From: Spirochaetaceae bacterium
GTDB taxonomy: Bacteria > Spirochaetota > Spirochaetia > Treponematales > Breznakiellaceae
Direction of reading: 5' to 3'
Assembly: GCA_031281945.1 (NCBI GenBank)
Contig: JAITER010000076.1
Location: 1 to 64,000 of the forward strand
Length of the DNA stretch: 64,000 bases
A model generated the notes under the pieces. That model saw only the letters and a list, made by a program, of their open reading frames with translations. It did not search any database and was not told the DNA's origin. Positions 17,064 to 28,226 of this stretch are shown in pieces; position 1 is the stretch's first letter; every line of letters begins with the position of its first letter. The position numbers and the translations under genes were made by a program.

Positions 17064-18431
17064 ATGAAATTTTATTTTTTCCACGCCATTATTTTAGCCT
17101 CGGCGCTATCCTGCGCGTCCCAGTCTTCTTTTACCGCCGCAGAGACGGAAGAAGACCTCAATTTCCGGGGGTTGATACGCGGGGCTCAGGATATAGCAAA
17201 GCCGGATTTTACGCAAAAGCCCAAAACCGAAGCGCGCATATCCCCAAAAACAAAATCAATAAAAGCCGGCGCCTTCGCGTACAACAAAATAAAAAAATTA
17301 ACGATTCCGCCTTCCGTAACATTCATAGGTAAAGGAGCCTTCGCTTTTAACGAAATTGAAGAATTAAAAGCGCCGCCTTTCATCACCGGAATAGGAGACT
17401 GGGCGTTTACCGGAAACAAAATAAAAAGTTTAACGCTTCCTGATGAACTGTCCAGCATAGGCAGTAAAACTTTTACAGGCAACGAAATTAAATCGGTAAA
17501 TCTGCCGCCGTCTTTAACACGCATAGGAAGCTATGCTTTCGCGTTAAACCTCCTGGAAGAAGCGTCCATACCGCGCGGCGTGCGCGTAATAGAAGCGTGG
17601 AGTTTCGCGGCGAACAAGATAGAAAAAATAACGCTTCCCGAAGGCCTTACAACGATAGAAAAAGGCGCTTTTTCACAAAACAGGATTAAAGAGGCCGCGT
17701 TTCCATCCTCGCTCTCCGTGATAGAAGACGGGGCTTTTTCCAAAAACGCCCTGCAAAAAGTAGACTTGCCGCAAAACGTGAAAATTCTTGGAGCAAGGGC
17801 TTTTTTTAAAAACGAAATAAAAGAATTAACCCTTTCAAAAAACATTTCCCGTATACCCGAAAAATGTTTCGCGCACAACAAAATAGAATCGGTTAAACTG
17901 CATGATGGAATTTCTTCAATACAAGCCGGAGCTTTTTTTGATAATAAAATTAACAATATAGTGATACCCGGCTCAGTTTCGGTTATAGGCGAAAGCGCGT
18001 TTGAAAAAAATGAACTTAAAACCGTGCGTTTCGCCAACGGAACCGTACGTGTAATTCAAAAAAGAGCGTTTGCGGACAATTTGATAGAAACCGTAAATAT
18101 ACCGGAAAGCGTATACAAAATTGAAGAAAGAGCTTTCGCAAACAATAAGATATCAAAAATAAGGACGCCGTATTCCGTGCGCGTCATAGGGGAAGGGGCT
18201 TTTGAAAACAATTCCATTTTAGCCGTAGAACTTCATAGCGAGATTCGTTCTTTGGGCGAAAAAGCTTTTTACGCAAATCCTATCGCCTCCATAAGGATTG
18301 GATCGGGGGTGAAATTCAAGGCGGAAGACCTGGGAATTTACGGCCCTTCTTTTTTTGAATTTTATGTTTCGCGCAACAAAAAGGGAGGGCTTTACGTTTA
18401 CAAAGAAGGCCGCTGGGAGGCCGCCCGTTAA
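17064..18431 (+). CDS. BspA-type leucine-rich-repeat lipoprotein
   Basis: A 455-residue surface or periplasmic protein. The N-terminus (MKFYFFHAIILASALSC) is a lipoprotein signal with lipobox ASALSC; acylation at Cys 17 is expected. From about residue 75 to 420 it is built of roughly 15 repeats of about 23 residues with consensus IPxSVxxIGxxAFxxNxIxxLxL, the LRR_5 type found in BspA of Tannerella and in treponemal surface proteins, where it mediates binding to host proteins or other bacteria. A short non-repeat C-terminal cap (FYVSRNKKGGLYVYKEGRW) follows. No ribosome binding site is adjacent to the ATG. The ligand is unknown. Confidence 0.9.
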   Translation: MKFYFFHAIILASALSCASQSSFTAAETEEDLNFRGLIRGAQDIAKPDFTQKPKTEARISPKTKSIKAGAFAYNKIKKLTIPPSVTFIGKGAFAFNEIEELKAPPFITGIGDWAFTGNKIKSLTLPDELSSIGSKTFTGNEIKSVNLPPSLTRIGSYAFALNLLEEASIPRGVRVIEAWSFAANKIEKITLPEGLTTIEKGAFSQNRIKEAAFPSSLSVIEDGAFSKNALQKVDLPQNVKILGARAFFKNEIKELTLSKNISRIPEKCFAHNKIESVKLHDGISSIQAGAFFDNKINNIVIPGSVSVIGESAFEKNELKTVRFANGTVRVIQKRAFADNLIETVNIPESVYKIEERAFANNKISKIRTPYSVRVIGEGAFENNSILAVELHSEIRSLGEKAFYANPIASIRIGSGVKFKAEDLGIYGPSFFEFYVSRNKKGGLYVYKEGRWEAAR

Positions 18432-19023: not shown

Positions 19024-19887
19024 TTACAGCGATTCCCTTCCAAGAGGGCGGTCTATTTTTATTGTAAGCCCCAAATACTCCACTTTACGGTTTTCTATAA
19101 GAATTTGTATATTACGCACGTTAGGAAATTCCGTGGCGGTCCATACAATTTGACGCAACTGGCCGTAATAACCTTCCGCATCGTAATTGTTGAATAAAAA
19201 ATTTTCGTTAAAATTAAGATACGCCGTATGCCCTTGCACCCGTGCGCCCAAAAGTTTTACGCCGGATGGAATTAAAGTGGACGTCCCCGCCGCTTCTTCC
19301 TCGCGCGACAAGCCGGAAAGCAGGCTGGTTATGGCCGCGGAAAGCGGCGCCTGGGTTGAAGGCAACTCTCTTTTTACAGGCGACAGAAAGACCATGCCGC
19401 TTGAATCTATATTTACAAAATAAAGCGTCCGCTCCCGCGTATTTGGCGCCGCGCCTTCATTCGCGGACGCAACGGACGGGGCCGCGTCCGTGAACGTGAA
19501 AGTTTCGCTTAACGCTCCGTCGTCTGGATTTAAAAAACCGCCTGAATTTTCGCCCAAAAGATGCTGCTGCAACTCCGCCGGGTCGTCCGTGCCAAAAGGA
19601 AAGGCCGGGTCAAAAGGCAAAAGGCCGCTCCCGCCATAACCGCCTTCGCCGCTTGACTGACGATTAAAAATAGACGGCTCCGCAGGCGGGGCGGCTGTAG
19701 TTTCCGCCGGACGGTTTAGGAGACGGTCTAAAAACCGGGTGCTTTCCAGCGTTTCTTTTATTTTTGGAATATTTATAAAAAAAATAAAAATTATTACAAC
19801 AGAAAAAGAAAGCCAAAAAAGAAGGGCCGCCGGCGGCTTTTTTGACGGGTGTTTAGCAGGTTTGGCGTTTTTTCCGCTCGCTCTCAT
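19024..19887 (-). CDS. GerMN-domain membrane-anchored protein
   Basis: A 287-residue protein with a cytoplasmic basic N-terminus, one membrane helix (LLFWLSFSVVIIFIFF) and a low-complexity Pro/Gly/Ser linker. The C-terminal GerMN domain (about residues 155-280) contains RTLYFVNIDSSG, PLSAAITSLLSG, AYLNFNENF and ATEFPNVRNIQILIENRKVEYLG. GerMN domains occur in the spore protein GerM and in non-spore-forming bacteria in the periplasm, often near peptidoglycan enzymes; the exact role is unknown. I place the start at the ATG 19887, because TATCAT (19894-19899) ends 6 nt upstream with TTGTAT 18 nt further; a TTG at 19923 is the alternative. It diverges from the BatC-like gene across a compact double promoter. 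Confidence 0.82.
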   Translation of the reverse strand: MRASGKNAKPAKHPSKKPPAALLFWLSFSVVIIFIFFINIPKIKETLESTRFLDRLLNRPAETTAAPPAEPSIFNRQSSGEGGYGGSGLLPFDPAFPFGTDDPAELQQHLLGENSGGFLNPDDGALSETFTFTDAAPSVASANEGAAPNTRERTLYFVNIDSSGMVFLSPVKRELPSTQAPLSAAITSLLSGLSREEEAAGTSTLIPSGVKLLGARVQGHTAYLNFNENFLFNNYDAEGYYGQLRQIVWTATEFPNVRNIQILIENRKVEYLGLTIKIDRPLGRESL

Positions 19888-19923
19888 AAACCGATGATAC
19901 TTCGATTCGGCTTGCAGATACAA

Positions 19924-19952
19924 TTGCCGTCTTACGCCTGTAATGCTATATT
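19924..19952 (+). promoter_or_regulatory. Promoter of the BatC/BatD-like genes
   Basis: TTGCCG (19924-19929), 17 nt, TATATT (19947-19952), then 7 nt to a GTG start codon at 19960. The geometry is that of a housekeeping promoter whose transcription start coincides with the start codon. It overlaps the divergent gerMN promoter. Confidence 0.65.
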
Positions 19953-19959
19953 TATAAGA

Positions 19960-20565
19960 GTGCGAATACGTTGTTTCGTTTTATTTTTAGTCCTTTTATT
20001 TTGCTCATGCTCGGATTTTCGGGCCAAGATTTTAATTTCCGAAGGAAACGTATTTTACGCAAACGGCGACTACGCGCAAGCCGCGGGTTGTTTTTTTAAC
20101 GCCCTTCCATACAAAGGAACCGCCCCTTACGCCGAATACGCTATTGGAACTTCGTATCTTGCTATGGACGAGGGGGAAGCCGCCCTGTCGCACTTTATAA
20201 AAGCCGGAGAAGAAACGGCGGCGAAAAAAGAAAACCGCGAACTTTTGTACAGAATACGGTATAACACCGGCATAATCCACTTTCAAAACGGGGAGTACCT
20301 GGAAGCCGCTGAAGATTTTAAAAACGCGCTTCGTATAGAACCCTCCCGCATAGAAGCAAAACACAACCTTGAACTCAGCCTGCTTTCGGCGTACCGCAAA
20401 CAAGAACAGGCCAATGTACAATCAACTAGAACCGGCGGAATAACCGAAAACAAAACAGAATCCCGTTCCGGCGTCCTTTTGGATTTTATGCGCCAAAGAG
20501 AAGCCGAAAAATGGAAAAGTTTTGAATGGGACGGCCCTAACGGGGACGACTCGCCGGATTATTAG
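19960..20565 (+). CDS. Tetratricopeptide-repeat lipoprotein, BatC-like
   Basis: A 201-residue lipoprotein. I take the GTG at 19960 as start: it gives a textbook signal (MRIRC, then FVLFLVLLFCSC, lipid-modified Cys about 17) and sits exactly where the promoter predicts transcription to begin. An in-frame ATG at 19894 would place extra residues before the signal and overlap the divergent promoter. After the signal come about three tetratricopeptide repeats (residues about 20-140; for example GNVFYANGDYAQAAGCFF and NTGIIHFQNGEYLEAAEDF), then a polar tail. Its position 3 nt before the BatD-like gene, with the same strand and layout as aerotolerance operons, suggests BatC. The usual batA and batB genes are not in the window. 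Confidence 0.75.
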   Translation: MRIRCFVLFLVLLFCSCSDFRAKILISEGNVFYANGDYAQAAGCFFNALPYKGTAPYAEYAIGTSYLAMDEGEAALSHFIKAGEETAAKKENRELLYRIRYNTGIIHFQNGEYLEAAEDFKNALRIEPSRIEAKHNLELSLLSAYRKQEQANVQSTRTGGITENKTESRSGVLLDFMRQREAEKWKSFEWDGPNGDDSPDY

Positions 20566-20568
20566 CTT

Positions 20569-22140
20569 ATGTTCTACGTTAAACTCGCGAAATCTTATAA
20601 AACGCTATATTTTTTTATATCTTCCGGCTTTTTTCTTTTTCTTTTAATAAACCGGCCTATTTTCGCCCAGGAAGAAGATAGCGCAAAGCCTTTGGAAACG
20701 GCCATAGAAGTTTCCTCTTACGTGGTTAAAGAAAACGAGCCTTTTACAGTCACCATCAACGTTTATCATCCGTATCCGCAAGACGTAAAAGTAGAACCGC
20801 CGGATTTTTCCGGCGCTATTGTAATAGAAAGCGAGCGCGTGGAATCGGCCTTGTTTACGGAGGCAAATGAATCAACAACAAAAAAAGAATTTATAAAGAC
20901 CTCTGTCGTAATTTTTACGCTTATACCGGTAAAAAGCGGCCCCATACTGTTAGGGCCTTTTAAGATTGAAGCCGCCGGAAAAACGGCGGCTAGCTGGCCT
21001 TTGCAGATTTACGCGGAGGCGTCCTCCATCCCGCCCGCCCCTATTACACGTTGGGAACACCCGCAACGTATTTTCACCGGAGAAAAAGCCCTTGTAGAAC
21101 TTCATTTATTAAACGGCGAATCCGTAAAAACGTACGGCGAAAACGCGCCTTTCAACATAGAAACGCCGGAAAACGCGATTATAAACAGGGTTGCGCCAAA
21201 AAATCAGGACTCCTCCCCTTCCCGCTCAAAAATCGCGCTGTCTCTTTCCGTAATCCCGCTTTCCGCCGGAACGCTTATAATACGCGGGAAAAGCGCCTAC
21301 AACGGTTCAGTTTTCGACTTGCCGGAATTGCGCCTGTACGTAAACCAGCCGACCGGTAAAACAGGCGCGGAAGAAGCCTCTTACAGACGGAAAAGACTCG
21401 ACTTTTTGAACGCGCAAGGCGCATCTTCAACTCCCCTCCCCAAAGCGGCGGCGGCTGTGGAAGAGGCGCGGCTAAGGCCGGCTAAAGGCCCTGATTTTGA
21501 AAAAACGCTAAATAAAAAGCCGGCTTCTTTTTTTAAAAGTTACAAAGACGCCGTTTACGAAATAAAAAACCTTTGGCGTGAAAAAAAATACGCCGCCGCC
21601 CTATCCGTTGCAAGGCGTTATGAACGAAATTCTTTTTTGGGGCCGTTTTTACGCCCCGTAAGGGCCGCAATGGAAGAAAGTCTTGGTTTGGAAACAAATA
21701 CGGACAACGACGAAAAATGGAAGCCGCTTTCCCTCTACAAAGCCTTGCTGCTATTACAGGCGGCGTTTTGCTGCATACTGTTTTTACGCTTAAAACGCGC
21801 AAACGCGGCGGAAAAACTTTCACCGCTGGTTAAAGACGCCTCAAACGAGACTAAAAAGCAAAAAAAAAGCGGCTTTCAACAGTTTTTCATCTGTTTCATT
21901 CCAGCCGCGGCGCTCGCGGCGGCGGCTTTAGCGGGGCTTCTTATAAAAGAAAATGAAGCCGTTTTACGGGAAGCGCCCGCCTTCACGCTTCCTGAGAGTG
22001 TAAATGGTGAAAAATACGCTTTCCGGTTTAAAGAAGGCCAGTTTGTAAAAATAAAAGCGGAAACAAAAGACGCCCTTTACGCAATTACAACACGCGGGGA
22101 TTCCGGCTGGGTGCAAAAAGAAAAAGCTATACGTTTTTAA
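20569..22140 (+). CDS. BatD-like protein with BatE-like C-terminal part
   Basis: A 523-residue envelope protein. A signal segment (about 10-35) is followed by Ig-like beta domains with the BatD pattern (SYVVKENEPFTVTINVY near the start; PLSAGTLIIRGKSAY later). From about residue 320 the character changes: a helical TPR-like stretch (YKDAVYEIKNLWREKKYAAALSVARRYE), two membrane helices (KALLLLQAAFCCILFL and ICFIPAAALAAAALAGLLI) and a C-terminal SH3-like end (FKEGQFVKIKAETKD then GDSGWVQKEKAI). TPR plus two helices plus SH3 is what I recall for BatE, so this may be a BatD-BatE fusion. Bat proteins are linked to oxygen tolerance or envelope integrity, but their biochemical role is not settled. 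A strong terminator follows. Confidence 0.75.
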   Translation: MFYVKLAKSYKTLYFFISSGFFLFLLINRPIFAQEEDSAKPLETAIEVSSYVVKENEPFTVTINVYHPYPQDVKVEPPDFSGAIVIESERVESALFTEANESTTKKEFIKTSVVIFTLIPVKSGPILLGPFKIEAAGKTAASWPLQIYAEASSIPPAPITRWEHPQRIFTGEKALVELHLLNGESVKTYGENAPFNIETPENAIINRVAPKNQDSSPSRSKIALSLSVIPLSAGTLIIRGKSAYNGSVFDLPELRLYVNQPTGKTGAEEASYRRKRLDFLNAQGASSTPLPKAAAAVEEARLRPAKGPDFEKTLNKKPASFFKSYKDAVYEIKNLWREKKYAAALSVARRYERNSFLGPFLRPVRAAMEESLGLETNTDNDEKWKPLSLYKALLLLQAAFCCILFLRLKRANAAEKLSPLVKDASNETKKQKKSGFQQFFICFIPAAALAAAALAGLLIKENEAVLREAPAFTLPESVNGEKYAFRFKEGQFVKIKAETKDALYAITTRGDSGWVQKEKAIRF

Positions 22141-22265: not shown

Positions 22266-22886
22266 TTATTTTAACAGTATTTCGGTGACGGCGGTAAAAA
22301 TTAAAGAAAGAAGGCCGGCTGAAACCAGCATAATAGGGAGGCCCCGCATTGAAAGAGGAATTTTTTCTTTTGCGGTGCGGTTGCGAACCGCTTTAAGAAT
22401 TAATACGGCGAAAGGAACGCCAGAAAAAAATCCGGCGGCCGCAAAAACAGCTTCCAAAGAATTTGAAGCGAATTGTATGGTAAAGACTGACGCCGTAAAG
22501 ATAAAAATCGAATCGGAAACCGCTCTTAAAAAATAAGCGTTTTCCCCAGCGTATGGAACATTAACGGCGTCTTTTTCAACGGCTTCATCTTCCCGCGGGC
22601 CGCGTTTGAAAAAAGCTCTCACAAGGCTCCCAAAAACGCTGTAAAGTAAAAAAGAAAGCGGAAAAAGCAAAAAATAAACAAAAAATCCAAAAGAAAGCGG
22701 AAAAAGCGCGTAAACGGCGAAATGCCAAATAATTAGAACGGTGATGAACATGCAAATTTCACGCAATAGATATGAGCGCTTCCAGCCTTCCCATTCAAAA
22801 TAAAAATCGCGCAAACCTACGCCCATCTGCAACATTAGATTTAATGAAAAGCCGGAAAAGAAAACCAGCGCGGCGAAACCCGTCAT
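22266..22886 (-). CDS. RnfA-position integral membrane protein
   Basis: A 206-residue protein with about six membrane helices, last gene of the rnf-like operon, overlapping the preceding gene by 4 nt (ATGA). Position, size and topology fit RnfA, a core subunit of the ferredoxin:NAD oxidoreductase ion pump. Sequence resemblance is weak. The first helix (FAALVFFSGFSLNLMLQMGVGL) lacks the Cys-Pro motif that in RnfA/NqrE-type subunits helps hold the intramembrane iron-sulfur centre, and no cysteine is present in the whole protein. The central loop (FKRGPREDEAVEKDA) is long and charged. It may be a highly diverged RnfA that has lost the metal centre, or a replacement protein. Confidence 0.5.
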   Translation of the reverse strand: MTGFAALVFFSGFSLNLMLQMGVGLRDFYFEWEGWKRSYLLREICMFITVLIIWHFAVYALFPLSFGFFVYFLLFPLSFLLYSVFGSLVRAFFKRGPREDEAVEKDAVNVPYAGENAYFLRAVSDSIFIFTASVFTIQFASNSLEAVFAAAGFFSGVPFAVLILKAVRNRTAKEKIPLSMRGLPIMLVSAGLLSLIFTAVTEILLK

Positions 22887-23542
22887 TTTATTCCTTTTTG
22901 TTTATTTTTATTAGGATTGTCAAGCCTTCGTTTTATTATTCTTAAAAGGCTAAAAGCGTAGCCCAAAATTAAAAGCCCCCCGGAAGCGCTGGAAACAATG
23001 TGCGGCAGATGCGTTTCCCAGGCGTCCGCGTTAAAAAGTTCTATAATTTCACCGTTTTTTTCGTAAGGTAAAGACAGCGTTCCATAACCCAAAGGCTCAC
23101 GGATTAAAGCCGCCGCGACGGTTAAAATTCCTATCGAAAGAGCCGCGCGCAAAACCTCCGTAAACAGGCTTGAAATTTCGCGGTTTTCTTTTTCTTTTAT
23201 AAATCCGCCCAAACAAAAAACAGGCGCGGAAAACATTATAAGCAACCTGCACTCGCAAGCCAAAACAGGATTTATTATAAACCATAAAGTATAAAAAAGG
23301 TTGGCGGCGAAAGCCGAAATAATTACAACTATTAAATCCGCCCCAAAACGCGGCGTAATTTTTGAAAGCGCGTAACAAAGCCCCCGCGTAAAAGTGAACG
23401 TCCATAAAAGAGCCAAAACGCAAGTAAGCGCGTAAGCCATTCTAGAAGAAGCTAGGATTAGAATCATGGAAGAAGAAAGAAGCGAAAATGGCGCGGAAAT
23501 CCAAACATTCATCCATTTTTTTATAAAATCACCCATCACCAC
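22883..23542 (-). CDS. RnfE-like integral membrane protein
   Basis: A 219-residue protein with about six membrane helices. The segment IREPLGYGTLSLP resembles the RE...GsGTL pattern after the fifth helix in RnfA/RnfE and NqrD/NqrE proteins, which supports the assignment. The first helix (FSLLSSSMILILASSRMAYAL) lacks the usual Cys-Pro; the only cysteines are at TC, LC, ACEC and FC in later helices, so metal binding is uncertain. It overlaps the upstream RnfG-position gene by 7 nt and the downstream gene by 4 nt, so translation is tightly coupled. It would act in the inner membrane with the neighbouring subunits. Confidence 0.6.
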   Translation of the reverse strand: MVMGDFIKKWMNVWISAPFSLLSSSMILILASSRMAYALTCVLALLWTFTFTRGLCYALSKITPRFGADLIVVIISAFAANLFYTLWFIINPVLACECRLLIMFSAPVFCLGGFIKEKENREISSLFTEVLRAALSIGILTVAAALIREPLGYGTLSLPYEKNGEIIELFNADAWETHLPHIVSSASGGLLILGYAFSLLRIIKRRLDNPNKNKQKGIK

Positions 23543-24084
23543 GCGCTCCCGTTAAGCTTTTTTAAGATAAGCGCCGCCGCTTTTTCAATGCGCTTTTTTT
23601 GTATCGCGGTGTAGCCTTCGGGGCTTCTTTCCATAGCGATTTTAGCCGTTTTTGAAAGCGGCAAGAACACGTCCATTTTAGCCGAATCCGTAAAAACGGC
23701 GAAATACATGGTGAAAATTCCCTCGTAAAAAACAGGAAAAACAACGGCTAGATCACGGTTGTTCATTATGTACCATTTTCCGGCGGCCACCGCCGGGCCG
23801 GGCATACGCCAGGCTGGAAGAGGCCTGTCTATCAAAAGGCTGCTCCCTTCTTCGTCTAAAATACGGTTCACCATGAAAGAAATCTTGGCCTGTTTGGATT
23901 TTTCGGTTAAACCGCAAACAAGCGCGGATATTAAAAGAGCCGTCGTAATCCATATAGCGAATATAGACGGGTCGTTCAAATTTTTAAAAAAACGCCCCGC
24001 TCTTTTTAAAAAACCAAGAATTACGCGAAAAAACCATATCACTTTGTCTAAAATTTTTTGAACGTCTAAATCCATATTTCGCAT
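23536..24084 (-). CDS. RnfG-position membrane protein without flavin-attachment motif
   Basis: A 182-residue protein between the RnfD-like and RnfE-like genes, where rnfG normally lies. It has a basic amphipathic N-terminus, one membrane helix (IFAIWITTALLISALVCGL, about 42-60) and a periplasmic domain of about 120 residues containing YEGIFTMYFAVFTDSAKMDVFLPL. RnfG carries FMN on a threonine in an S(T)GAT motif; no such motif exists here. Either the subunit is extremely diverged and flavin-free, or an unrelated protein occupies the slot. It begins 58 nt after rnfD. Confidence 0.45.
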   Translation of the reverse strand: MRNMDLDVQKILDKVIWFFRVILGFLKRAGRFFKNLNDPSIFAIWITTALLISALVCGLTEKSKQAKISFMVNRILDEEGSSLLIDRPLPAWRMPGPAVAAGKWYIMNNRDLAVVFPVFYEGIFTMYFAVFTDSAKMDVFLPLSKTAKIAMERSPEGYTAIQKKRIEKAAALILKKLNGSAW

Positions 24085-24142
24085 CCAAAATCGAAAAATC
24101 CGGCGGCGGCTTCCGGTTCATTTTTGCTTCCGGCCGTAAAAT

Positions 24143-25198
24143 TCATGAAAAAGTCCGCCCGTCATGTTTCTTTCCATAAGCGGCGCAAGAACATCTGTAA
24201 ATTTTATTCGTTTCGTAGTCGCGTATAAGCGGGCAAAGCGCGTTCACCAAAAGAACCGCAAAAAACGCGCCGTATAATTCGCCGCTTATATAACGGAATA
24301 TAAAACTAAAAGCGGCGGCTAGTAAAACCGCAAACACTTTCCCGCCGTAAGATTTAGGGCCGGAAGCGGGATCCGCCGTAAGAAAAAAAGCCGCGACTAA
24401 AGTTCCGCCTGAAAAAAGGCAATAAAACATATCCCCTTCGTTCAAACCGCCGCCTTCGCCCAAAGCGCCGGCGATTTTTACCAAAGAAAGATAAAAAACC
24501 ATGTAAAGCGAGAAAAGCATTATGCGCCGCCCGTTAGCCAGAATAACCGCTCCCGCAACCAAAAGAGCCAAAACTCCCCTGCCGGCTATTATATCCGGCG
24601 AAGAAGACGCCAAAAAAGAGGTGAAAGAAAACGGAATCTCACACGAAAATATTTGAAAAACCGTTTTGTTAAAAAAACCAACGACGGCTTCCAAGCCGCG
24701 CTCCAAAAAAGGCTCCGCCGTAACAGAAACCGTTTCTATAGAGCCGTAAACTGTAATAGGCGATTCCGCAAGGGCTTCGTTAAAAGCTTCCTCCCATGAA
24801 AACCGCGCAAAAAGGAAACCCGCCGCCGCCGGATTTATCCAGTTTGACCCGAGCCCTCCAAAAGCGCCCTTTACTACGGCCATAGAAAAAAAAGCCGCAA
24901 AAAAAGCTAAAAGCGGATTTATGGCGTTTGGAAGCATAAGAGCTAAAACCAACCCGGAAGCCGCCGCGCTAAGATCATTTATAAAACGCTTGCGCCTTAA
25001 AATCGAAAGCAAAAATTCCGCTGAAACCGCCCCCAAAAGAGAAGCCGCGGCTATAACAAACGAAAACCCTCCGTCGCTTAAAGCCGATTGCGCTGTCACC
25101 AGCAACGCGCCTATAGCGATTAAAGCCATGCGGTTTGTTGTAAGAAGGGAAAAATTTAAAAGCGGCCTTTCAAAAAGCGTAATATCGCGTTCTTTCAT
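24143..25198 (-). CDS. rnfD: RnfD-like subunit of a Rnf/Nqr ion pump
   Basis: A 351-residue membrane protein with about nine helices. Family landmarks are GGLGSNWINPAAAGFLFARF (residues about 115-135), LMLPNAINPLLAFF, and FFLTADPASGPKSYGGK near residue 275. RnfD/NqrB normally bind FMN covalently at a threonine in SGAT between the middle helices; the corresponding stretch here reads TVYGSIETVSVT and lacks the motif. The ATG lies 3 nt after the rnfC stop codon. The C-terminus (IYRCSCAAYGKKHDG) is cysteine-containing and unusual. Role: membrane part of an electron-driven ion pump. Confidence 0.78.
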   Translation of the reverse strand: MKERDITLFERPLLNFSLLTTNRMALIAIGALLVTAQSALSDGGFSFVIAAASLLGAVSAEFLLSILRRKRFINDLSAAASGLVLALMLPNAINPLLAFFAAFFSMAVVKGAFGGLGSNWINPAAAGFLFARFSWEEAFNEALAESPITVYGSIETVSVTAEPFLERGLEAVVGFFNKTVFQIFSCEIPFSFTSFLASSSPDIIAGRGVLALLVAGAVILANGRRIMLFSLYMVFYLSLVKIAGALGEGGGLNEGDMFYCLFSGGTLVAAFFLTADPASGPKSYGGKVFAVLLAAAFSFIFRYISGELYGAFFAVLLVNALCPLIRDYETNKIYRCSCAAYGKKHDGRTFS

Positions 25199-25201
25199 CC
25201 G

Positions 25202-26605
25202 CTAATCCCCCTTAAACGCCGGATTTATTATAGTAGTGCAAAGAGGCAAATTCGAAGGGCAAACGGCCTCGCAACAGCCGCATCCATGACACTGCATTAC
25301 AAGCGAAGAAACTGAAAGCCCGTGCTTTTTACCGTTTATGTTTTTATAAATATCCTCCGGGTCCAGGCCTACGGGACAAACTTCCCTGCATTCTCCGCAG
25401 TTTATGCAATGATTCGCCGACAAATAACGGCGCGAAAGTTTGTTTTTTTTTCTGATTTTACCGGGAGTTCTTTCCTCGGAACGCAGATCCAGCACGCGCC
25501 TGGAATTCCAAAGCATATTGCCGGCGGAAAAAGTTTCGTTGGCCGCGGCGAAAACCGCGTAAGTTGTTTTTATTATAGGTTCGTCCAAGCTAAAAACAGC
25601 CCGGCCCATCATCGGAGAACCGTAGGCTACACGTTTTGGAGAGGCGCAACCGCCGCATTCTTTAAATACATCCGCTATCCGCGTCCCTAAACGGACGTTT
25701 ACAACGCGAGGTTCTTTTATGGCCGAACCGCCTATGGCGACGTAGCGGCTTAAAACAGGCCTGCGGTATTTTACGGCTGTATAAACCGCTTCCAAACTCG
25801 CGGGGCCGAGAAAAAGAAGAGACCCCAGGCGGCGGTTTTCTTTTTTTTCCGCCTGGCGCAACGCAAATGAAAGTTCCATTTTCCCGTGCTGAGGGTAGAG
25901 GTTGCTCACCTGTATGACAAAAGCTTCCGTTTCGCCGGATTTTTTTAATACATCCAGCAAATCAAAAGCTATATTTTTTTCGTTTGATGAAACCGATATA
26001 CAAATTTGATCCGCGCAGGCCGCTTTAGCGGCTATCAAAGCGCCTTCCGCCACCGCTTCCGTCTTTTCGCGGCACAAACAGTAGTCGGCGGCAAGCCAGG
26101 GGTCGTCAAAAACGCACCTCACCACCAAAGTCGCAACGCCGTTCACGCCGGTAAATTCACTAAAAATTTCAGTAAGAGGCGCCCCGCGCCCTTCCATCTC
26201 CACCACGCCGTATTCCGCCATAAGAGCCTGTATTTCAAAAGGCGAAAGGTCTTTCCACTCATGCCCGCGCGCTTCTTTTCCCAAAAGGCTGAAACGCCCT
26301 TCCAGCTTTATTACAACGGCGTCGTTGGTCATTTTTTCGGGCAACTTCCAGTTTACAAGCTGAACCACCTTTCCAGGTATGGGCGCGTGTATATTCGCGG
26401 AACCGGCTCCCTGAGAACGCGCTATAAGGCCGCCTTCCTCTACATGGTCTCCCACAGATACAACGGGATATGAATGAACGCCGTTATGTTGAATCATGGG
26501 TAAAACCGCGATTGGAGGCAGGAAAGAAAGAGAACTTTTTTCGGGAAGCGGCGCGGAATTATCGCTTAAATCTATACCGCCGCGTAGAAAAGAATACACC
26601 TTCAT
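25202..26605 (-). CDS. rnfC: RnfC-like electron-input subunit
   Basis: A 467-residue soluble subunit that would take electrons from or give them to NADH, using FMN and two [4Fe-4S] clusters. The N-terminal beta module (HNGVHSYPVVSVGDHVEEGG, ANIHAPIPGKVV) is typical, the central part is the NuoF-like flavin/NADH region (VNVRLGTRIADVFKECGG), and the C-terminus has two ferredoxin motifs with cysteines 400, 403, 406, 410 and 439, 442, 445, 449. It is the first gene of rnfC-D-G-E-A. RnfB, which normally contacts ferredoxin, is not encoded next to it or anywhere in the window. No strong promoter was identified in the 238-bp upstream region. Confidence 0.88.
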   Translation of the reverse strand: MKVYSFLRGGIDLSDNSAPLPEKSSLSFLPPIAVLPMIQHNGVHSYPVVSVGDHVEEGGLIARSQGAGSANIHAPIPGKVVQLVNWKLPEKMTNDAVVIKLEGRFSLLGKEARGHEWKDLSPFEIQALMAEYGVVEMEGRGAPLTEIFSEFTGVNGVATLVVRCVFDDPWLAADYCLCREKTEAVAEGALIAAKAACADQICISVSSNEKNIAFDLLDVLKKSGETEAFVIQVSNLYPQHGKMELSFALRQAEKKENRRLGSLLFLGPASLEAVYTAVKYRRPVLSRYVAIGGSAIKEPRVVNVRLGTRIADVFKECGGCASPKRVAYGSPMMGRAVFSLDEPIIKTTYAVFAAANETFSAGNMLWNSRRVLDLRSEERTPGKIRKKNKLSRRYLSANHCINCGECREVCPVGLDPEDIYKNINGKKHGLSVSSLVMQCHGCGCCEAVCPSNLPLCTTIINPAFKGD

Positions 26606-26843: not shown

Positions 26844-28226
26844 TTAAACGCCTTTAAAACGGCTTTTTAACGCCCGCCCGACAGCCTGAAAAACTTTAGG
26901 CGGCCTGCCTGACAAACCAAGCGCGGCCGCCGGCGGCGCGATTAAAAGAATAGCCAAACGGGAATCCTGAAAAAACGGCGGAAACATCGTTAAAACCGCC
27001 GCAAAAGAGGCGGCTATAAACACAAAAGCGTATATCACCGCGACCGCTTTTCGCGCCGCAAGCGATCTTTTCTTATTTTTTGTGAAGATCGCGATTAAAG
27101 ACATGACGCAAGCGGCCAGAAAAACCGGATTTACGAAAATCACGTTTATATTATTATATGTGTATATATGATTCGAAAAAAATGAAGCGTAACAAAGCGT
27201 CGTTCCTAAAACGCCGAACACAAAAGAAAAGACGGCGCAACAGGCGTAAAACGCGATAAAAGCCCATTTTATTTTTTTTATTGCGTATAAATAATTAAAA
27301 ATTAAAAACAAAACGGCCAAAAACATTCCAGCCGCCGCCGTTTGCGCGAAATAAGACGGCGGCGCGTCCAAAGCGAGGTTCCTGCCTGACGATATATTTA
27401 TAACTTCCACATTCGAAACAAGCCTTTCTTTGCTTCCGTCGTCCTTTTCAACAGTAAAATCTTCCAGGCCGCCGGCAAATTCCTGCGGCAAGTACATTTC
27501 ATCCGTTCTGGAAGACTCCGCGTCTATGCCGGCGCCCATAACAAAATTTAAAATCCAATACATAACCTGCGAAGGATAAAGATGGCGGTTCGCGTGTTCT
27601 CTCACCGTAAAACGGCCCTTTTCGTTGTTATAACGCGACAAAAAAGCTCCGTCCAGCACATCGTCCAAAAGCAAAAGAGGGCGCGTTACGCAATTGTCCG
27701 TGAATATTTTGTAATAATACCTGCGATTCTGCGGCAGGGCGTTCCATTCAAGAAAATCCAGCATCTTTTTTTTCTGAGCGGCGCTCAAATTAAGCGTGTA
27801 ATAAACGACGTCGCGGTTGTTGTTTATATACCAGCCTATATCGTATTTGGCGTCCCTCACCGTCATGGAATAATACCAGTTTCCGGCTATCAAATTAGAA
27901 AAAAAATTTTCTTCGTCAAATGAAAAGACGCCGTAGTCGTAAAACCGCGATTCTCCGGTAAAAGCGTCGTCGCAAATTATCCCTAAATGCCCCCACCACG
28001 AAAAGAAATCATCCCCCGGCCCTATCACAGCCGCTTTTATGGTAATCAAATCAAAACGGCTCTTTGGTTGATTCGCGGATGAGCCGTCATCTTCGCAAAA
28101 AACGCCGCGCTCAGGCGCCATGAAAATGAAAAAGAAGATGAGTAAAAAAACAACGCTTTTATTTCGCGCACCGGCCTTCTTTGTAAAGGAGGCGCGGTTT
28201 TTAAAAGGAATGCTATTCAGTTCCAA
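26844..28226 (-). CDS. DUF4105 membrane protein, Lnb-like
   Basis: A 460-residue protein with a signal segment (VVFLLIFFFIFM), a periplasmic domain (about 50-270) and about five C-terminal membrane helices. The DUF4105 signature is clear: SWWGHLGI near residue 75 and FTDNCVTRPLLLLDD near residue 185, together with WYINNNRDVVYY. The His and Cys in these motifs are the proposed catalytic pair of a papain-like fold. As I recall, Bacteroidetes proteins with this domain (Lnb) N-acylate lipoproteins; whether that applies in spirochaetes is unknown. The start is uncertain: a TTG at 28226 overlaps the upstream gene by 14 nt and lacks a good ribosome binding site. Coupled translation with the upstream secreted protein is likely. 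Confidence 0.72.
   Translation of the reverse strand: MELNSIPFKNRASFTKKAGARNKSVVFLLIFFFIFMAPERGVFCEDDGSSANQPKSRFDLITIKAAVIGPGDDFFSWWGHLGIICDDAFTGESRFYDYGVFSFDEENFFSNLIAGNWYYSMTVRDAKYDIGWYINNNRDVVYYTLNLSAAQKKKMLDFLEWNALPQNRRYYYKIFTDNCVTRPLLLLDDVLDGAFLSRYNNEKGRFTVREHANRHLYPSQVMYWILNFVMGAGIDAESSRTDEMYLPQEFAGGLEDFTVEKDDGSKERLVSNVEVINISSGRNLALDAPPSYFAQTAAAGMFLAVLFLIFNYLYAIKKIKWAFIAFYACCAVFSFVFGVLGTTLCYASFFSNHIYTYNNINVIFVNPVFLAACVMSLIAIFTKNKKRSLAARKAVAVIYAFVFIAASFAAVLTMFPPFFQDSRLAILLIAPPAAALGLSGRPPKVFQAVGRALKSRFKGV

Follow-up and report, generated by a model that had tools for sequence, protein, structure and literature searches.

Can an Rnf complex still serve as an electron-driven ion pump once RnfB and much of the usual electron path are gone? 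In the known complex, electrons pass from RnfB to the A/E 2Fe-2S cluster, then to the flavin mononucleotide (FMN) of G, the FMN of D, the riboflavin of D, the iron-sulfur (Fe-S) clusters of C, the FMN of C, and finally NAD+. The question is raised by a five-gene operon in a 64,000-nucleotide (nt) stretch of a Spirochaetaceae bacterium (assembly GCA_031281945.1, contig JAITER010000076.1, positions 1 to 64,000; hereafter the window). Its genes lie in the order C-D-G-E-A on the minus strand, from 26605 to 22266, as five open reading frames that lie 3 or 58 nt apart or overlap by 7 or 4 nt; rnfB is not encoded among them. The original prediction for this locus was that the order is kept, that rnfB is missing, and that the central electron wire is lost or rebuilt in a complex that is nevertheless maintained. 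The five genes and their order were borne out, as was the absence of rnfB from the operon itself, and the idea of a maintained complex with an altered wire holds and gains strength from over 100 related loci. What the prediction missed is the loss within RnfC, the riboflavin and 4Fe-4S parts that are kept, and the graded intermediates in relatives. We propose, with a probability of about 0.6, that the operon, here called Rnf2, is a conserved paralogue derived from a six-subunit operon by stepwise loss of cofactors, and that it acts as a cytosol-facing relay or redox switch.

A second Rnf operon and its residue inventory

The same genome carries, on another contig (C31, locus L013), a complete and ordinary rnfC-D-G-E-A-B operon with intact motifs (GMGGAGFP and ECEGY in C, GGTGATPLG in D, ITAATISS in G, the Cys pairs in E and A, and RnfB), and one ApbE on contig C14. 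Thus, rnfB and an ApbE flavin transferase, both suggested as genes to look for elsewhere, were found; this RnfB is encoded by the canonical operon, which is separate from that of the window. A normal complex elsewhere had been named as a finding that would count against the original prediction, and it exists, although the window subunits are still without their ligands. Because the genome has the complete rnfCDGEAB set and apbE, the window operon is, as judged from its sequence, a second, conserved Rnf paralogue rather than a degraded sole copy, and the cell does not lack canonical Rnf genes. This arrangement is common: RnfD was found in 58 of 59 genomes of the order, most of which have a canonical copy (Rnf1; about 340–370 bits) together with a divergent Rnf2 copy (about 145–200 bits in the window's family).

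For the residue comparisons we used 46 Rnf2 loci, comprising 29 from the window's family (f1), seven from the family that includes a Treponema pallidum-like genome (f3), and 10 from two other families of the order (f4/f5); some of the canonical loci were fetched only in part. RnfC had been called orthodox, and the match to the Protein Data Bank (PDB) RnfC profile is indeed strong (E 3.9e-72). The description is wrong, because both FMN/NADH-binding loops, GGAGFP and ECEPY, are replaced. The two loops are nearly fixed in 29 Rnf1 sequences, replaced in all f1 and f3 Rnf2 sequences, and largely gone in f4/f5. Where they stood, f1 proteins have newly invariant residues, namely the E of GIVEM, and CVFDDPWLAADY. 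The 4Fe-4S ligands are complete, with eight of eight Cys in the window protein, in 29/29 Rnf1, and in 46/46 Rnf2 loci. A further Cys, C317 in ECGG, is present in 44/46 Rnf2 loci (10/10 f4/f5, 6/7 f3, and 28/28 f1, one further f1 row being gapped); the corresponding residue in Clostridium tetanomorphum RnfC is Ala. The window RnfC therefore appears to have lost its NADH/FMN site, and its two 4Fe-4S clusters are predicted to be among the parts kept.

The D protein also matches its PDB profile well (E 6.4e-34), and it reads TVYGSIET in the loop expected to hold the flavinylated SGAT. Neither SGAT nor DxxSGxT occurs in any of 40 aligned D sequences (the window protein and 39 homologues). In the numbering of the Acetobacterium woodii structure (PMC11889175), which we use for RnfD, the FMN-bearing position 156 is Thr in 30/30 Rnf1, 9/10 f4/f5 Rnf2, 0/7 f3, and 2/29 f1 sequences, as counted by an alignment that is loose in this loop; the loop varies in length and is missing from many relatives. 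The riboflavin contacts have a different history. N123 is Asn in all Rnf1 and in 46/46 Rnf2 sequences, and D249 is Asp in Rnf1 and f4/f5, Asp or Glu in 29/29 f1, and mixed in f3. In the 40-sequence alignment, Asn at the first position and Asp or Glu at the second are found in 40/40. The riboflavin pocket of D is thus predicted to be kept in the window's family.

The remaining three subunits are harder to recognize. Pfam identifies C and D as Rnf proteins, and the match of A to rnfA (TIGR01943) is weak. For G and E, neither Pfam nor NCBIfam gave a match, FMN_bind of Pfam included in the case of G. The G model is confident (AlphaFold predicted local distance difference test, pLDDT, 90.6), and its top VIA-align matches are RnfG of C. 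tetanomorphum, A. woodii, and Azotobacter vinelandii, with modest Z scores of 6.1, 5.9, and 5.4. Borrelia BB0365 (IpLA7/p22, 6r1g) scores level with RnfG (Z 5.7). A profile–profile comparison did not link G to RnfG significantly, and Foldseek returned nothing under E 0.001 for the model (RnfG matched at about 0.7), so homology of G is argued from gene position and the VIA-align ranking. The FMN motif [S/T]GA[S/T] is not in the window G protein, and 66 G homologues gave two stray matches.

E and A are better placed, with hhalign probabilities of 97% to RnfE and 98.4% to RnfA, respectively. The 13 best Foldseek matches of the E model (pLDDT 78) are all RnfE, NqrD, NqrE, or RnfA chains, at E-values >0.01. 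The cluster ligands are another matter. RnfE Cys-1 and Cys-2 are invariant in Rnf1, apart from gaps at Cys-2 in two rows, and are found in five and six of 10 f4/f5, two and zero of seven f3, and zero and 11 of 28 f1 sequences. RnfA Cys-1 is present in 22/22 Rnf1 (for 21 of those, the fetched sequence stops short of Cys-2); each of the two positions is Cys in six of 10 f4/f5 and in none of the f3 or f1 sequences. The window E has five Cys (41, 56, 96, 98, 110), none equivalent to the Cys-1 ligand. No column of A is Cys in at least 30% of sequences, and one column of E is, at about a third. Most of the motif losses originally listed for these subunits are confirmed: no SGAT in D, no S(T)GAT in the G-position protein, and no Cys-1 ligand in E, for which the loss of the first-helix Cys-Pro had been noted. 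A was said to have no cysteine at all, which is not so (C45 is present), although neither cluster position holds one.

Table 1. Coordinates of the Rnf2 genes in the window and of the protein segments discussed
Feature	Coordinates	Strand	Description	Match
rnfC2 (467 aa)	25202..26605	-	RnfC_N barrel, Nuo51-like FMN-binding domain, SLBB, two 4Fe-4S sets	Pfam, TIGR01945
rnfC2 residues 133-143, GVVEMEGRGAP	26177..26209	-	replaces canonical FMN/NADH loop GMGGAGFP	
rnfC2 residues 164-170, CVFDDPW	26096..26116	-	replaces canonical (N/D)GAECEPY; FDDPW invariant in f1	
rnfC2 residues 315-320, KECGGC	25646..25663	-	C317, Rnf2 signature	
rnfC2 first 4Fe-4S ligand set, CINCGECREVCP	25373..25408	-	four Cys in 46/46 Rnf2 loci	
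rnfC2 second 4Fe-4S ligand set, CHGCGCCEAVCP	25256..25291	-	four Cys in 46/46 Rnf2 loci	
rnfD2 (351 aa), RnfD-like	24143..25198	-		PF03116 (NQR2_RnfD_RnfE), E 7.1e-44
rnfD2 residues 119-124, NWINPA	24827..24844	-	N122 equivalent to A. woodii N123, riboflavin contact (PMC11889175)	
rnfD2 residues 151-156, YGSIET (149-156, TVYGSIET)	24731..24748	-	loop expected to hold flavinylated SGAT	
rnfD2 residues 274-279, TADPAS	24362..24379	-	D276 equivalent to A. woodii D249, riboflavin contact (PMC11889175)	
rnfG2-position protein (182 aa)	23536..24084	-	long N-terminal helices and small beta domain, without FMN motif	
rnfE2 (219 aa, GTG start), RnfE/NqrD-like membrane protein	22883..23542	-	cluster Cys-1 lost, RE..G motif kept	
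rnfA2 (206 aa), RnfA/NqrE-like membrane protein	22266..22886	-	both cluster Cys lost	TIGR01943, E 1.5e-8

Promoter and terminator scans gave no signal above chance. Misassembly or a frameshift was ruled out as the cause of the arrangement, since about 110 of the loci that were fetched contain the operon. Adjoining it on the same strand (26844–28226) is a gene for a membrane protein with an Lnb_N domain (PF13387, 2.1e-18), and genes for TPR and BatD proteins on the plus strand (19849–22140) converge on rnfA2, ending just 3' of it. Farther away (17064–18431) is a gene for a secreted-looking 455-aa protein that, judged by eye, consists of repeated BspA-like leucine-rich units.

Graded loss across the order

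A single-protein scan of genome contigs with D gave no match. A second scan, with the C profile, located 200 related stretches in GTDB species genomes, from which 80 loci were fetched, Breznakiella homolactica among them. The five-gene order C-D-G-E-A is found in nearly all 29 f1 loci and in 7/7 f3 loci. RnfB was detected in none of these 36 loci by motif search, and whole-genome domain searches in eight genomes agree. Seven of the 10 f4/f5 Rnf2 operons have RnfB 3' of A.

The flanking genes are also shared. A GH57-like gene (PF03065, PF09095) just 3' of rnfA2 or rnfB2 flanks 38/46 Rnf2 loci from all groups (e.g., L047:2431–4332, L048:1695–3578, L083:492–2462), and in the T. pallidum-like locus it and rnfA2 overlap. 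Most loci, again in all groups, have a gene for a roughly 500-aa protein with no Pfam match immediately 5' of rnfC2 (e.g., L048:7611–9068, L083:7500–9089, L081:1128–2636). In the window's genome, the GH57-like gene and the relative of the roughly 500-aa protein are on other contigs (the latter on C20). Flanking genes common to all groups tie the f4/f5 intermediates to the reduced forms, and f4/f5 operons with RnfB, the D Thr, and some of the Cys make this a graded series of loss. In the RnfC tree, which is midpoint rooted and has long branches (those of f3 in particular), Rnf1 and Rnf2 split with 100/100 support, f1 and f3 are supported groups, and f4/f5 group weakly. A further Rnf-type operon, L060 (G018:C124), has a very divergent C-like protein, His at N123 of D, and intact Cys motifs in E and A.

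Rates of change differ between subunits. In the same 13 genomes, mean identities for Rnf1 and Rnf2 are 0.65 and 0.51 in C, 0.63 and 0.46 in D, 0.71 and 0.33 in E, and 0.74 and 0.32 in A. The f1 proteins keep 39/111 of the Rnf1-invariant columns in C, 27/110 in D, and 6/86 in E. Twelve such columns in C and 14 in D have been re-fixed to another residue in f1, which points to new constraint. This looks like repurposing of C and D with relaxation of A and E, rather than simple decay. Termite-gut relatives that have both a normal and a stripped complex, along with the intermediates in other families, provide natural material for working out which parts of Rnf pumping depends on, and what purpose a scaffold without the wire serves.

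The series extends to a pathogen. One genome (a single contig of 1,139,633 bp) has one RnfD, at 173952–174851, which matches TP0151, and a variant at 174,174 has been assigned to tp0151 (PMC7162541); the position of the gene suggests that this genome is T. pallidum. A whole-genome domain search found no RnfB-type FeS domain in it, and its two FMN_bind proteins are both encoded away from the operon. In the operon, the D Thr is absent, the riboflavin contacts are Asn and Glu, the C Fe-S Cys are kept, the C FMN/NADH loops are absent, and A and E have no ligands at the cluster positions. The sole Rnf of this genome is therefore of the Rnf2 type and is predicted to be unable to work as the known pump. 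This matters because published models have an atypical, flavin-dependent Rnf pump powering motility and uptake in T. pallidum (PMC7512555, PMC11371664), and the residue inventory places that complex in a type that lacks RnfB, the covalent FMNs, the A/E ligands, and the NADH site.

What the stripped complex may do

In A. woodii, ferredoxin:NAD+ activity is abolished in mutants that lack cluster B8 or AE1, the FMN-G site, or the site for riboflavin (PMC11889175). Because Rnf2 of the window's family would keep, of the whole path, only the D riboflavin and the C Fe-S clusters, we strongly infer that the known U-shaped route from ferredoxin to NAD+, and the Na+ pumping coupled to it, cannot run. 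On our account, Rnf2 would have begun as an ordinary six-subunit Rnf-type operon and shed its parts step by step: C its NADH/FMN site, the operon its rnfB, A and E their 2Fe-2S ligands, and D and G their sites for covalent FMN. Both 4Fe-4S clusters of C would have stayed, as would the D riboflavin pocket in the window's family, on a C-D-G-E-A scaffold that can still be recognized. A soluble cytosolic donor (ferredoxin or flavodoxin) would then most probably exchange electrons solely with the C clusters and the riboflavin of D, and Rnf2 would be a membrane-anchored Fe-S/riboflavin relay or redox switch facing the cytosol. With moderate confidence, we regard this as the simplest use of the parts that remain.

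Several observations weigh against this account. The RnfD loop aligns poorly, so Thr and Ser counts at the FMN site are uncertain. In 15/29 f1 sequences, Ser occurs at that site in a GSPL context (others have no loop), and ApbE is able to use Ser (PMC12052999), so D might still carry residual covalent flavin. The D249 equivalent has been lost from some f3 members, and not every Rnf2 would therefore have the riboflavin site. Finally, non-covalent flavins or new Cys ligands may occur in Rnf2; the A and E proteins of T. pallidum, for example, have many Cys.

One alternative is a rebuilt pump, in which electron transfer would still be coupled to ion transport through non-covalent flavins or relocated Fe-S ligands, with a donor or acceptor other than NAD+. 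The full membrane scaffold, both Fe-S clusters, and (in the window's family) the riboflavin residues are kept, Cys and acidic residues have become invariant at new places in C (C164, C317, FDDPW), and T. pallidum has this version alone although a pump is postulated for it (PMC7512555). We nonetheless consider a rebuilt pump unlikely, given the scarcity of Cys-rich columns in A and E, the variable and often absent D loop, and the divergence of A and E, which is far faster than in Rnf1.

Loss of all the cross-membrane redox sites, with the A/E/D folds and many non-ligand residues kept, would also fit a non-redox or redox-gated transporter or scaffold. In that case, D and the A/E pair, with its alternate access, would transport a substrate or hold a partner in place, and the C clusters would be only a sensor. 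NqrA offers a precedent for duplication with loss of redox cofactors (PMC12174285). The strong constraint on the riboflavin residues and the eight Fe-S Cys points instead to some electron transfer, and no transport phenotype is known, so this alternative strikes us as improbable. Its bolder form, a repurposed scaffold whose Fe-S and riboflavin groups gate an alternate-access transporter or signalling complex, which would leave T. pallidum without an Rnf-type ion pump, is similarly doubtful. Decay toward loss, as a pseudo-complex, would suit the higher rates at which A, E, D, and C evolve relative to the Rnf1 of the same genomes, but is very unlikely: reading frames are intact, gene order is conserved across the family, the Fe-S Cys, N123, and re-fixed residues are invariant in about 40 distant relatives, and T. 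pallidum still has the operon in its reduced genome of 1.14 Mb.

Comparison with known systems

We found no literature on RnfB-less Rnf complexes that describes the Rnf2 type, and the nearest relatives are best compared in turn. Canonical Rnf (RnfCDGEAB; 7zc6, 9eri, 8ahx) shares the C-D-G-E-A order, the C Fe-S sets, and the D riboflavin residues; the likeness is detected by sequence in C and D, by profile and fold in E and A, and by a weak fold match in G. Rnf2 differs in having no RnfB, C FMN/NADH loops, Thr-linked FMN on D or G, or A/E cluster Cys set, and its A and E evolve much faster. Na+-NQR (NqrABCDEF) likewise goes back to a duplicate of the rnf operon from which rnfB disappeared, and its NqrA subunit no longer has redox cofactors (PMC12174285). 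However, NQR gained NqrF and kept the FMNs and the membrane 2Fe-2S cluster, whereas Rnf2 lacks NqrF and has the opposite pattern, with the C Fe-S clusters kept and the membrane wire lost. Assignment of the operon to NQR was ruled out, as there is no NqrF and no sixth gene, and C has two Fe-S sets.

Partial NQR/RNF-like systems have been described (eLife 2021, PMC8238504) in which an incomplete set of Rnf genes likewise includes a membrane protein of the RnfD type. There, RnfD is fused to an NAD-binding domain and has flavinylated partners, neither of which is seen in Rnf2; the window D, at 351 aa, has PF03116 alone and no fusion to an NqrF-type NAD-binding domain. The Rnf-like operon of T. pallidum (TP0151 region), called atypical or noncanonical in the literature, is of the Rnf2 type and shares the absence of RnfB and of the D FMN Thr, the C Fe-S Cys, C317 in ECGG, and the GH57-like neighbor. 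It differs from the window operon in being the sole Rnf of its genome, in its low identity, in having Glu as the D249 equivalent, and in a more diverged protein at the G position.

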